Shown here: positions 1,410 through 60,080 of the stretch, one piece after another
Numbering within the stretch: the first letter of the stretch is position 1
Layout of the letters: each line of letters starts with the position of its first letter
NCBI GenBank assembly: GCA_018823415.1
Contig: JAHJIN010000457.1
Location: forward strand, 1-64,000
Reading direction: 5' to 3'
DNA from: Chloroflexota bacterium
GTDB taxonomy: Bacteria > Chloroflexota > JAHJIN01
DNA length: 64,000 nucleotides
Notes under the pieces: generated by a model
Database searches by the model: none
The model's input: only the letters and a program-made list of their open reading frames with translations
What the model was told of the DNA's origin: nothing
Program-made: the position numbers and the translations under genes

Positions 1410-1724
1410 CTACCCCCCATAATAGTTGTAAACGACCCGGGCCGCGGAGGGGGCATTCGGGTCGTTGATATAGTTGGTATTCTCGGTCCCCACCCGGAGC
1501 ACCTCGCTGGCGTGGTGGTCAAAGGCCAGATGGACGCTGGGCACGTAGGGGAGGTTGGTGGTGATGTCGTCCCCGGTCAGTTCCACCTTGCCGTCCTGAA
1601 CATCCTTGGGGTGAACGAACTTGATCTCGCCGAGCAGCCCCAGTTCCTTCAACCAGACTGCGCAGACCAGGCCGTCCATATCGCTGCGGGTCACCAGCCG
1701 ATATGTTCTCTTTTCTGCCGACAC
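1410..1724 (-). pseudogene. DHH-family phosphoesterase, N-terminal fragment interrupted by the IS607 element
   Basis: RLVTRSDMDGLVCAVWLKELGLLGEIKFVHPKDVQDGKVELT...HLAFDHHASE...DPNAPSAARVVYNYYGG then stop exactly at the element boundary; intact homologs are much longer. Confidence 0.75.
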
Positions 1725-1747: not shown

Positions 1748-1939
1748 GGGCCTAACCCCAAGACGGTTCAGTTAGCGTGGAGTCGAAGCTTTAGCTGGTT
1801 TTGGCCCCCAAAACACCCGCCTGAAGGCTCTACTCCACTCTTATCTGAACCGTCTTGGGCCTAACCCGTGAAATTCCTGTACAACGAGCAAGAATTTCCA
1901 AACCATCAACCCAGTTGGTTCTAATTCATCCAGGTTAGG
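1748..1939 (+). repeat. Short palindromic dispersed repeat family A, copy 1 (interrupted by the 103-bp element)
   Basis: GGGCCTAAC[element]CCTAACCCGTGAAATTCCTGTACAACGAGCAAGAATTT...CATCCAGGTTAGG; same sequence at 39251 and 59996. Confidence 0.85.
1757..1859. mobile_element. MITE-like element, 103 bp, with terminal inverted repeats
   Basis: Ends CCCAAGACGGTTCAG...CTGAACCGTCTTGGG (15-bp perfect TIR, then imperfect GTGGAGT/ACTCCAC); flanked by direct repeat CCTAAC at 1751-1756 and 1860-1865. Confidence 0.8.
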
Positions 1940-13645: not shown

Positions 13646-14815
13646 ATGGAACCTCGGCCGGTGCTGCACATTCCGGCACTCGTCATGCTCCTGGCCTGTC
13701 TCCTCACTGGAGGAACCAGCGCGCACGAGTTGACTGCACGCAGCCATGTCTCGGGCGCGCTGTCTGTATGGCGCATCGAGATGGTGGATGATGATGGCTG
13801 GGTAGGTGAGTATTCCTCCCTGGCCCTGGACTCGGCCGAGCGGCCGCACATCAGCTACTTTGACGAGTTCAACCTTGATTTGAAATACGCCTACCAGGAC
13901 GACTCGGGCTGGCACGTCGAGCGGGTTGACTATGCCGGAAACATGGGCCAGTACTCATCCCTGGCCCTGGACGCTTCCGACCGGCCGCACATCAGCTATT
14001 ACAATGAGAGCAACGGGGACCTGCGATACGCCTACCAGGATGCCGCCGGCTGGCACATCGAGACGGTGGACGGCGATGGCGTAGACGTGGGCCAATACAC
14101 CTCATTGGTACTCCTGGGCGGCCAGCCGCACATCAGTTACTACGACGAGACCCACGGCAACCTGAAATATGCCTACAAGGATGGTTCCGGTGTTCCACAC
14201 ATTGGGACAGTAGACAGCAGTGCCGGAGATGTCGGACTCTACACCTCCCTGGCGCTCGATGACATTGGTCGACCTCACATCAGTTACTACGACGCCACCC
14301 ATAGCGATCTCAAATATGCGTACCACGACGGCGCCAATTGGCAGATCGCGACAGTCCCTGCGGGCGCGGGGGCCGTGGGTGGCTTTACTTCCCTGGCTCT
14401 GGATGCCGCCGGCCGACCGCACATCAGTTACCACGACATCACGCAAGGCGATCTAGAGTATGCCTATCAGGATGCCAGCGGTTGGCACGTCGAGACGGTG
14501 GATAGCGCCGGCAGCGTAGGTGCTTATACCTCCCTGGCCCTGGACGTCGCCGGTCACCCGTACATCAGCTATTACGATATCGGCAAGGGCGACCTCAAGT
14601 ATGCGTACCAGGATGCCGCCGGCTGGCACGTCGAGACGGTCCCTGCGGGTACTGGGGACGTGGGAAGCTACTCTACCTCCCTGGCCCTGGACTCGACCGG
14701 ACACCCACACATCAGTTACTACGACGATACCGACGAAACGCTCAAGTACGCCTACGAACCGCGCATGGTTTTCTTGCCGCTGGTCCTGCGCAGCGCGATG
14801 GGGCAGGTGCGATGA
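13646..14815 (+). CDS. Secreted protein of about seven ~43-aa repeats, C-terminal FLPLVLR tail
   Basis: Signal peptide; repeats YSSLALD..xRPHISYYD....DLKYAYQD.SGWHVETVD..G.VG; C-terminus MVFLPLVLRSAMGQVR. Confidence 0.8.
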   Translation: MEPRPVLHIPALVMLLACLLTGGTSAHELTARSHVSGALSVWRIEMVDDDGWVGEYSSLALDSAERPHISYFDEFNLDLKYAYQDDSGWHVERVDYAGNMGQYSSLALDASDRPHISYYNESNGDLRYAYQDAAGWHIETVDGDGVDVGQYTSLVLLGGQPHISYYDETHGNLKYAYKDGSGVPHIGTVDSSAGDVGLYTSLALDDIGRPHISYYDATHSDLKYAYHDGANWQIATVPAGAGAVGGFTSLALDAAGRPHISYHDITQGDLEYAYQDASGWHVETVDSAGSVGAYTSLALDVAGHPYISYYDIGKGDLKYAYQDAAGWHVETVPAGTGDVGSYSTSLALDSTGHPHISYYDDTDETLKYAYEPRMVFLPLVLRSAMGQVR

Positions 14816-23645: not shown

Positions 23646-26036
23646 TCAGCGCCGGGCGATGGTAAACCCGCGCTCCTGTTGTTTGACGTTGTTCAGATAG
23701 AGGATCAGGCGATAGTCGCCCGGGTCCAGCCCTTGATTGTCCCACATGCGCACATCCCATACCGTGCCCTGTGCGCCGTACCGGGCATAGTCCCACGGCT
23801 CGTCTACGGTGTTCAGATGTTGGCCGTTGAAATACCACTCGCGGCGCACGGTCATGCCGGACTGCATATTGACATAATCCCACACGATGCGGACCTCGTA
23901 GACGGGGGACGCAAAATTGCCGCTGCAATCGGCTTCGCCGCCGCCCGGCGGGATGACGCAGAATTGCAATTCTGTAAACTGGCCGGCGCCAGGTCCCTGG
24001 GTGGGGACGGGCGTTGGTGCAGCCAGGACCAGGTAGCGGCCGTTGCACCAGCCCGGCGTGGAGCCGGGTGGGCCGCTCACGTTGTACCACGGGTCGCCGG
24101 ATACCCACTGGGGACCGCCGGCAATGACGAGCAGGTCGCCATTGTGGGCCGTGTATAGCACCGGGTAGGATGGGCCGGGGCCGCTGCGGATGTTGAGCTG
24201 ACCGTCGGGCGAAGCCACCTGCACCCAGGTTCCCACCGGGAATGTCGGCTCCACCGTGGACGTGGGCGTGACCGGTGCCAGCACTAGGTAGCGGCCGTTA
24301 CACCAGCCCGTGAACGTTTGTCCTTCGTCTGTCACCAGGTACCACGGCGCGCCTTCGACCCAGGTGGGACCCTGGACCACGCGCAGGCGGGTGCCGTTGG
24401 GCACGCTGCGCAGGATGCTATATTGGGAGCCGGGGCCGCTGCGGATGTTGAGCTGGCCGTCGGGCGAAGAGACCAGGACCCAGGTGCCCGGCGGAAAGTC
24501 GGGCTGCGAGGTGGGCGTGATGGTGGGCGGCGGCGGTCCCACCGGCGTGAGATATTGGCCGCTGCACCAGCCCTGGTAGGTCTGCGGGTCGTTTACCACT
24601 TCGTACCAGGGGACGCCGCCCACGACCGTGGGGCCGCCCACGATGCGCAGGCGCGTGCCATTGTTCGCCACGGCAATGACCGCATAATTGGTGCCCGGCC
24701 CTTGCCGGATGTTGAGCCGGCCGCTGGGCGAAGACACCTGCACCCAACTGCCCACCGGGAACACCGGCCCAATGGTGGGCGTGATGGTGGCCGGCGGGGT
24801 GGTAGATACCAGATAGCGGCCCTCACACCAGCCCCGCACTTTGCCGGCCTCGTCTGTCACTTCATACCAGGAGGCGCTGTCGGCCGGCACCGGCCCGCCG
24901 AGGATGCGCAGGCGCGTGCCATTGTTCAACACGGCCACCACTGCATAGCCCAGGCCTGGTCCCTGCCGGATGTTCAGCCGACCGTCGGGCGAAGAGACCA
25001 TCACCCAACTGCCCACCGGGAACACCGGCCCGGTGGTGGGCGTGGGAGTGACGGGCGTGCTGGCGGCCAGATAGCGGCCGTTGCACCAGCCGTTGGCCGC
25101 GCCGCCGTCCGTGACCTGATACCACCGGTCGGCTCCGACGACGGTGGGGCCGGCCGCGACCTGCAAGCGGGTGCCGTAGGATACCGTGGTAACGACGGCA
25201 TAGCCGGTGCCCGGCCCGGCGCGCAGGTTCAGGTTGGCCACGTTCACCTCGACCCACGAGCCCACCGGGAACGGCGCGGGGCCGGCCGTGGGCAGCGCCG
25301 GCGTGATGGTGGGCCAGACGGCCGGCGTGACCGTGGGCTGGCCGATGGGGCCGCGGAACCAGCGCCACATGCCGTTGGCCCGGGCCAGGTGCCCCACGTC
25401 GCTCTGGGCCTGTTGGGCACCGCCGCGTTCGATGGTCAGGGTAAAGGGCACCTGGGCCACATCGGTATATGTGCGGTCCATAAATGCCCATGAAGGCAGG
25501 ATGGTGGTGTCGCCATAGCTGCGGGCCACAATCACGTAATCGACCGTCTGCTCCATGTATCGCACATAGTCATCGCGGGAGAACAGGGCCTGTACGTCGG
25601 GGTGGAGCAGGTCGTACTGGCGGCCGTAATCGCCGGCGATCTGATAGGCGTGAACCAGTTCGTAGGTGCCCTGGGGCGTGCGCACGAGTTCGATGAGCAC
25701 TGTTTCTGCCGTCGGCTGTACGTCCTGGCCTTCGTAGCCCGTGGCCGACACGTGCAGCGCGGCGCCAGGCGGCAGGGGGATGGCAAAGGTCCCGGACTCG
25801 TCGCTCGAGACGCTGGTCGAGCCGGTTTGCACCTGGGCCTGGGGGATGGCCTGCAGCGTGACTGCGTCACGGACCATGCCGCTGATGGTGCGCGTGCCGG
25901 CTGGCGTGGGGGTGTCGGTCGGGCCAAATGGCTGCACCGGCCCCACCACCAGGATCACCATGATCAGCGCCAGCAGGCCTAGCGCAGTCAGTCCCAGCGC
26001 GCCCACTACCAGAATCCATTTGGTGGTCTGGTTCAT
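23646..26036 (-). CDS. Membrane-anchored protein with carboxypeptidase-regulatory-like domain and five bacterial SH3 repeats
   Basis: N-terminal TM; FPVGSWVxVSSPDGxLNIRxGPGxxYxV...GWCNGRYL repeated five times. Confidence 0.85.
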   Translation of the reverse strand: MNQTTKWILVVGALGLTALGLLALIMVILVVGPVQPFGPTDTPTPAGTRTISGMVRDAVTLQAIPQAQVQTGSTSVSSDESGTFAIPLPPGAALHVSATGYEGQDVQPTAETVLIELVRTPQGTYELVHAYQIAGDYGRQYDLLHPDVQALFSRDDYVRYMEQTVDYVIVARSYGDTTILPSWAFMDRTYTDVAQVPFTLTIERGGAQQAQSDVGHLARANGMWRWFRGPIGQPTVTPAVWPTITPALPTAGPAPFPVGSWVEVNVANLNLRAGPGTGYAVVTTVSYGTRLQVAAGPTVVGADRWYQVTDGGAANGWCNGRYLAASTPVTPTPTTGPVFPVGSWVMVSSPDGRLNIRQGPGLGYAVVAVLNNGTRLRILGGPVPADSASWYEVTDEAGKVRGWCEGRYLVSTTPPATITPTIGPVFPVGSWVQVSSPSGRLNIRQGPGTNYAVIAVANNGTRLRIVGGPTVVGGVPWYEVVNDPQTYQGWCSGQYLTPVGPPPPTITPTSQPDFPPGTWVLVSSPDGQLNIRSGPGSQYSILRSVPNGTRLRVVQGPTWVEGAPWYLVTDEGQTFTGWCNGRYLVLAPVTPTSTVEPTFPVGTWVQVASPDGQLNIRSGPGPSYPVLYTAHNGDLLVIAGGPQWVSGDPWYNVSGPPGSTPGWCNGRYLVLAAPTPVPTQGPGAGQFTELQFCVIPPGGGEADCSGNFASPVYEVRIVWDYVNMQSGMTVRREWYFNGQHLNTVDEPWDYARYGAQGTVWDVRMWDNQGLDPGDYRLILYLNNVKQQERGFTIARR

Positions 26037-29530: not shown

Positions 29531-29600
29531 TTAACCGCCGAGAGCGCAGAGAACACTGAGCAGAAAATCCTTTGCGCTCTCGGCGTGCTCTGCGGTGAGT
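29531..29600 (+). repeat. Dispersed repeat family B, copy 1
   Basis: TTAACCGCCGAGAGCGCAGAGAACACTGAGCAGAAAATCC...GCGCTCTCGGCGTGCTCTGCGGTGAGT; reverse-complement relative at 59838-59909. Confidence 0.75.
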
Positions 29601-39250: not shown

Positions 39251-39335
39251 GGGCCTAACCCGTGGAGTTCTTGTACAACGAGCAAGAATTCCCAGAAGCG
39301 TTATCTTGGTTGGCTCTGGTTTATCCATTTTAGGG
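39251..39335 (+). repeat. Short palindromic repeat family A, copy 2 (uninterrupted)
   Basis: GGGCCTAACCCGTGGAGTTCTTGTACAACGAGCAAGAATTCCCAGAAGCG...GGTTGGCTCTGGTTTATCCATTTTAGG. Confidence 0.85.
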
Positions 39336-59830: not shown

Positions 59831-59837
59831 GCTCCAT

Positions 59838-59909
59838 TCACCGCAGAGCACGCAGAGGGCGCAGAGACTCTTGATCTGTTCAGCGTTCTCAGCGATCTCG
59901 GCGGTTAGA
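59838..59909 (-). repeat. Dispersed repeat family B, copy 2
   Basis: Reverse complement TAACCGCCGAGATCGCTGAGAACGCTGAACAGATCAAGAGTCTCTGCGCCCTCTGCGTGCTCTGCGGTGA aligns with 29531-29600. Confidence 0.75.
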
Positions 59910-59995: not shown

Positions 59996-60080
59996 CCCTA
60001 ACCTGGATAAACCAGAGCCAACCAGGTTGATGCTTCTGAAAATTCTTGCTCGTTGTACAAGAATTTCGCTGGTTAGGCCC
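59996..60080 (-). repeat. Short palindromic repeat family A, copy 3, in the predicted 5'UTR of the rpiB operon
   Basis: CCCTAACCTGGATAAACCAGAGCCAACCAGG...AAAATTCTTGCTCGTTGTACAAGAATTTCGCTGGTTAGGCCC (reverse complement of copies 1 and 2). Confidence 0.85.

Follow-up and report, generated by a model that had tools for sequence, protein, structure and literature searches.

IS elements that target extragenic palindromes are a known phenomenon: ISPa11, ISPpu9, ISPpu10, ISPsy8, ISRm19 and ISRm22 illustrate how insertions of one IS type recur at one fixed position in an extragenic palindrome that is spread over the genome (PMC1525189). Published subgroups of the IS4 family duplicate 7-13 bp of target, and the duplications of IS701, ISH3 and IS1634 measure 4-6 bp, with 4 bp for IS701 and 5-6 bp for IS1634 (PMC2266710). 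The REP/RAYT system and the IS200/IS605-derived PATEs represent short palindromic extragenic repeats of many copies, which insert without duplication beside a short motif complementary to the 5′-end sequence of the element. The pneumococcal BOX, RUP and SPRITE repeats are also small, interspersed, structured and intergenic (PMC3049150). Here we describe a stretch of Chloroflexota DNA (the window; 64,000 nt, contig C428 of an assembly of 6.9 Mb in 641 contigs with 7.6% contamination) in which a 103-bp MITE-like element interrupts an 85-bp repeat, repeat A. Our account, to which we give a probability of roughly 0.8, is that the MITE is moved by an IS4-type IS at the target GG-NYTARN-CC, and that repeat A is mobile in its own right, REP-like and inserted without duplication. 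The nesting of a MITE in repeat A is by itself ordinary bacterial mobile-DNA biology; the points of interest beyond it are the target rule of the IS and a repeat that may rebuild Shine-Dalgarno (SD) sites.

Copy 1 of repeat A (1748-1939, plus strand) is split after CCTAAC into positions 1748-1756, which read GGGCCTAAC, and 1866-1939. The intervening element (1757-1859, no strand assigned) starts CCCAAGACGGTTCAG and finishes CTGAACCGTCTTGGG. Its left terminal inverted repeat (TIR; 1757-1771, plus strand) has the same letters as the ends of an IS of the same genome, and its right TIR (1845-1859, minus strand) is again CCCAAGACGGTTCAG when read on the minus strand. The target duplication CCTAAC lies at 1751-1756, where it doubles as the left end of repeat A, and at 1860-1865, where CCGTG comes next. 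The nested mobile repeats, the 15-bp perfect TIRs and the 6-bp duplication that a preliminary description had claimed are therefore borne out to the base. These TIRs are the sole exact matches within the window, and in imperfect form they extend to ~33 bp, which that description had missed together with a third copy of repeat A (59996-60080, minus strand, uninterrupted). Folded as single-stranded DNA, the 103-mer reaches -29.4 kcal/mol (z = -6.9), a value equalled by none of 200 dinucleotide shuffles. It is thus short, non-coding and TIR-bounded, with a strong hairpin, as expected of a MITE.

Copy 2 of repeat A (39251-39335, plus strand), 28 nt upstream of an ATG, is uninterrupted as described and reads GGGCCTAACCCGTGG. 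It had been offered as an in-window empty site. Uninterrupted copies of A do exist, but they are paralogous, being other copies of the repeat, and not allelic. Similarly, the boundaries drawn from this filled/empty pair hold, but one pair cannot fix a boundary: with an element that ends CCC...GGG and a site that reads GGCCTAACCC at the left end of repeat A, the 11-bp GGGCCTAACCC is another possible reading of the direct repeat. This rotation ambiguity is settled by other copies, in which the flanking 6-mers vary as NYTARN and CCC/GGG are constant except for one right end with AGC.

The exact TIR is found at 15 places in the assembly, namely both ends of the window MITE and 13 others, and a multi-copy IS shares these ends. 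This IS is seen at 13 contig ends, and the contigs stop ~140 bp inside it. The preliminary description had proposed a search for a full-length IS with the same ends; IS ends with the C-terminus of a transposase were recovered, but the rest of the IS body is missing from the assembly, and none of the 641 contigs holds the IS with both ends or its full transposase. The final transposase codons lie just inside the TIR at the right end and encode ...RVVKRKMSKFKLKRPEHAHWPQPTKSFAEAVVILN followed by a stop. The related genomes used for comparison, which have no more than the phylum in common with this one, contain relatives of the 41 C-terminal residues, the best sharing 58-66% identity over the fragment. 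Three relatives (462-483 aa) carry Nterm_IS4 and DDE_Tnp_1 and score above the NCBIfam IS4 cut-off (NF033592); these domains belong to the relatives, this genome supplying the last 41 residues. A 35-residue transposase fragment alone had no Pfam or NCBIfam match. In relatives L071, L072 and L077 the pattern Y-2-R-3-E is visible, with the K of YREK clear only in L072. By eye, L071 has a similar TIR, CAATACGGTTCAGTTAA, inside a palindrome centred on CTAG, with an apparent GCTAGM duplication, and the duplications read from the sequence are 10 bp in L077 and apparently 5 bp in L072. Searches for the IS in public genomes with YTARNCCCAAGACGGTTCAGWTA and in viral contigs with CCCAAGACGGTTCAGTTAAGG gave no match elsewhere and no full IS.

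The alignment of the C-terminal fragment to these relatives places the IS close to the IS4 family. However, its duplication is the 6-bp NYTARN and its ends begin CCCAAGACGG, in contrast to the -AATR of the IS4 subgroup. Because 6 bp falls outside the 7-13 bp of that family, we do not class it simply as a member; it looks like an IS with an IS4-type transposase and an unusually short duplication. Short duplications are a feature that it shares with IS701 and IS1634 (4 and 5-6 bp; PMC2266710). It differs from them in that IS701 duplicates 4 bp and IS1634 AT-rich tracts, and in that the relatives, which were compared with the IS4 model, match it and have Nterm_IS4. IS701 is said to prefer YTAR targets. 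A 6-bp NYTARN duplication would widen the known range of IS4-type elements.

One further MITE copy exists in the assembly (C586:128-409, 282 bp), likewise in repeat A. With a total of two copies, the element lacks the amplification that is usual, although not strictly required, for a MITE. The name given in the preliminary description is thus apt for the TIRs, the duplication and the shared ends, but denotes a low-copy mini-element and not a proliferated family. The C586 copy is flanked by CCTAAC and TCTAAC, with one mismatch between the duplication copies. In its extra sequence we read a third element, bounded by GGCwwTTCC...AATGATCCC, which has entered AGCTTTAGCTGG. This third element (L014) has ends GGCTTTTCC.../...GGAATTGCC, with AATGATCCC as the inner part, and an apparent TTA or TAA duplication; an end similar to it abuts repeat A in contig C12 near 35260 (L218).

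The MITE shares 15-18 bp with the IS ends that carry the transposase C-terminus, and this stretch of ~18 bp at the ends is all that the two have in common. Such limited agreement, confined to CCCAAGACGGTTCAGTTA, along with the longer imperfect TIR of the MITE's own, would suit a separate MITE family that has another IS, one that is absent, as its autonomous partner, with the common ends going back to the ancestral TIR of an IS4-type clade. MITEs, however, commonly share only the TIR with their autonomous partner. Given that the ends are identical base for base, and that both elements have a 6-bp NYTARN duplication and sit in the left end of repeat A in one genome, we regard a separate family as quite improbable. 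We infer instead that the 103-bp mini-element is non-autonomous and mobilised in trans by the same-ended IS, whose IS4-type transposase would recognise the CCCAAGACGGTTCAG ends and act by a DDE mechanism.

Oriented flanks show NYTARN at all 12 of the printed ends, to which contig C571 adds CCTAAG; the C571 right end, with AGC instead of CCC, is among the TIR matches with two mismatches and outside the exact 15. GG precedes NYTARN in five of seven left ends, and CC follows it in the right ends except for one that abuts the MITE. Four pairs of left and right IS ends have a 6-mer in common: GTTAGG (C137/C77), GCTAAT (C50/C82), TTTAGA (C614 or C522 with C237) and CCTAAG (C464/C571). Random NYTARN draws equal this matching in 0.05% of trials. 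All of the sites tabulated fit the 6-bp NYTARN, most of them within GG..CC. Neither of the outcomes that the preliminary description had named against itself, namely ends found in no other copy or inconsistent duplications at other copies, was encountered, since further copies include those of an autonomous-type IS and their NYTARN 6-mers agree.

The fragmentation of the genome and the coincidence of IS ends with contig ends might point to an artefact of assembly or binning, in which repeats of a metagenome-type assembly were joined chimerically. Yet both MITE copies are internal to their contigs and have duplications, and the IS ends have independent flanks with matched duplications, so that we give this explanation hardly any credence. 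Transposition would proceed by 6-bp staggered cuts at GG-NYTARN-CC, leaving NYTARN duplicated. With CCC and GGG as its own ends, the element recreates GG-NYTARN-CC on both sides of an insertion, and the site would stay open to repeat insertion. Contig C586, in which the order is IS, CCTAAC, MITE, TCTAAC and repeat A, has the IS right next to the MITE, the arrangement that target regeneration would predict.

Four of 11 separate IS or MITE insertions lie at the GGCCTAACC end of repeat A, in three A copies: the window MITE, the C586 MITE, the C586 IS and the C137/C77 IS. For three of 11 the estimated chance is ~1e-4, a figure extrapolated from the density of YTAR in the 64-kb window that ignores selection against insertions in genes. 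The nesting would arise because the left end of A is an excellent and abundant target. The preference of the IS for A is apparently a consequence of GG-NYTARN-CC and not an exclusive taste for the repeat; unlike the REP-targeting elements, the IS is also found at this motif outside A.

Repeat A has 76 strong copies genome-wide (covariance model, E < 1e-8), and pattern searches with its single ends returned 64 and 65 places against 0 in reversed controls. Left modules of A also occur in named Thermoflexia and Anaerolineae MAGs, several with other cargo and mostly again after TTA or a similar sequence. Both groups belong to the Chloroflexota, which points to this phylum for the present genome. 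The places concerned (L154-L173) include Thermoflexia CSMAG_2276, Anaerolineae MO66 and other MAGs, with ACGAATTACACGAA or CACGGAG repeats among the middle cargo. In a long subtype of A, ~60 bp more in the middle correspond to repeat D. Repeat D (ACCGCCGAGAGCGC...TCTGCGGTGAAATTCTTG), the cargo of the long form, is present at C18:4637-4811 and ~38 places (L180-L209), and within the window at 29532-29598 and 59837-59909. The A copies in C462, C570, C369 and C263 have a longer upstream stretch in common, gattgcacaaccgtTACGCTAACC, which makes them a subfamily that has either captured a flank or gained a second repeat. Those in C493, C50, C340, C226 and C263 directly follow a GC-rich hairpin ending CATA (e.g. 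ctgtggcgggctacgcccgccacaggcata); the hairpins before these five copies are possibly terminators or another palindromic repeat serving as a landing site.

Repeat A itself appears to be mobile. In C18 a copy lies inside repeat D, whose consensus ATTATG-AATAACC is split by GCCTAACC...GGTTAGG with no duplicated base in this one filled/empty comparison. Most copies have the motif YTA(G)G in the left flank, the right flank being without a clear motif, and tandem copies are joined as GGTTAGG|GCCTAACC. The repeat also has 7-bp perfect terminal inverted repeats, CCTAACC...GGTTAGG, highly conserved among copies, which would befit an ordinary TIR-type MITE moved by a DDE enzyme with short or eroded duplications. 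The host repeat in C18, with zero duplicated bases between ATTATG and AATAACC, and the restriction of the motif to the left flank make this doubtful. The process that moves A is most likely strand-specific, leaves the target unduplicated and places the repeat after YTA(G)G. The second palindromic repeat of the preliminary description is thus real, but it is better termed a REP-like element, seemingly inserting without duplication.

Motif-directed insertion without duplication is the behaviour of IS200/IS605 and RAYT elements, and insertion 3′ of a short motif is what A displays at YTA(G)G, the absence of duplication coming from the one comparison. We therefore propose that an HUH-type enzyme of the IS200/IS605 or RAYT type may act on A in trans. 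The 5′ CCTAA of A is complementary to TTAGG, which recalls the guides of IS608 (PMC8266576). The left hairpin and the guide-like match of CCTAA are clear, and the right side is ambiguous. Repeat A resembles REP/RAYT and PATEs in the general traits given above, with TTAGG/CCTAA as the complementary pair. It differs from them in that it has no linked Y1 or RAYT gene; moreover, REPs are palindromes of 20-50 nt with a GTAG-like tetranucleotide, whereas A is 85 nt long, has YTA(G)G in its left flank and no fixed GTAG tag, and has a closing 7-bp inverted repeat and a sense-oriented placement in ribosome-binding sites. The genome contains four IS200-type and two RAYT-like genes (six Y1 matches), the latter matching NF047646 at 65-76 bits, under the cut-off of 80. 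None of the six Y1 matches is flanked by A ends, no A copy lies within ~1.5 kb of the two RAYT-like genes, and the enzyme moving A was not found in the assembly. An autonomous A element was also sought; there was no transposase gene between A ends, and left and right modules, with the exception of two right modules that have no partner, pair only within ~150 bp.

The placement of A relative to genes is strongly biased. When frames that start with ATG and are 80 or more codons long are counted, a start lies within 20 nt downstream of 33 copies in sense orientation and of 5 in reverse (p = 4e-6), and the distances peak at 6-9 nt. BOX, RUP and SPRITE, in contrast, are enriched between convergent genes. 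For many A copies, the last letters of the upstream flank are TAG, the stop codon of the gene before. The downstream genes are unrelated, including ribosomal protein L5 (rplE), a two-domain MMR_HSR1 GTPase, type III pantothenate kinase, TatA, ABC parts and a PhoU-like gene, and a regulon under A was rejected on account of this diversity. When the flanks of A are joined, SD-like sites result, such as GTAAGG|AGGCCCC-ATG and CATAGG|AGGTGCGGAA-ATG. The mean SD-core match is 2.45 nt for the right flank alone and 4.70 nt with the GGTTAGG of A. Joined empty sites are only weakly above shuffled flanks in SD-likeness (p ~0.02-0.05), since YTAGG serves as target motif at all sites; the SD-like match is thus for the most part that motif.

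The 33 sense copies near an ATG, and the 7-bp closing stem in the RNAalifold consensus, could also belong to an immobile family of 5′-UTR riboregulators, in which the 5′ CCUAACC pairs with a 3′ GGUUAGG used as ribosome-binding site. Covariation is slight, however, with two-sided change in 2 of 20 pairs; several copies are reversed or away from starts, others are inside other repeats or in tandem, the genes downstream have no relation to one another, and there is no Rfam match. We consider riboregulators unlikely. A known RNA was discarded on the same Rfam result, and a small protein gene (a GTG...TAG frame) because the frame is broken by single-base deletions in several copies and, by eye, substitutions have no third-position bias.

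We favour the reading that SD sequences contain the target of A, YTA(G)G, and that only insertions oriented to rebuild the SD are kept, the 3′ GGTTAGG restoring the site so that the insertion would survive through SD repair. If true, such an SD-restoring end would offer a definite and testable route by which mobile DNA spreads inside operons and leaves their genes unbroken. The two ideas jointly, an IS4-type clade with a 6-bp GG-NYTARN-CC target regenerated by CCC/GGG ends and an SD-rebuilding, duplication-free repeat silently invading operons as essential as a ribosomal protein operon, we advance tentatively and at less than even odds.

Other features of the window include an IS607-family serine transposase gene at the contig start (732-1364, minus strand; NF033518, 221 bits). 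Beside it, an abruptly ending frame (1410-1724, minus strand) looks truncated by that element and by eye resembles DHH-type phosphoesterases, with no Pfam match. Tandem coding-type repeats are present at 13736-14755 and 24009-25272, with units of 141-147 nt and ~255-264 nt.
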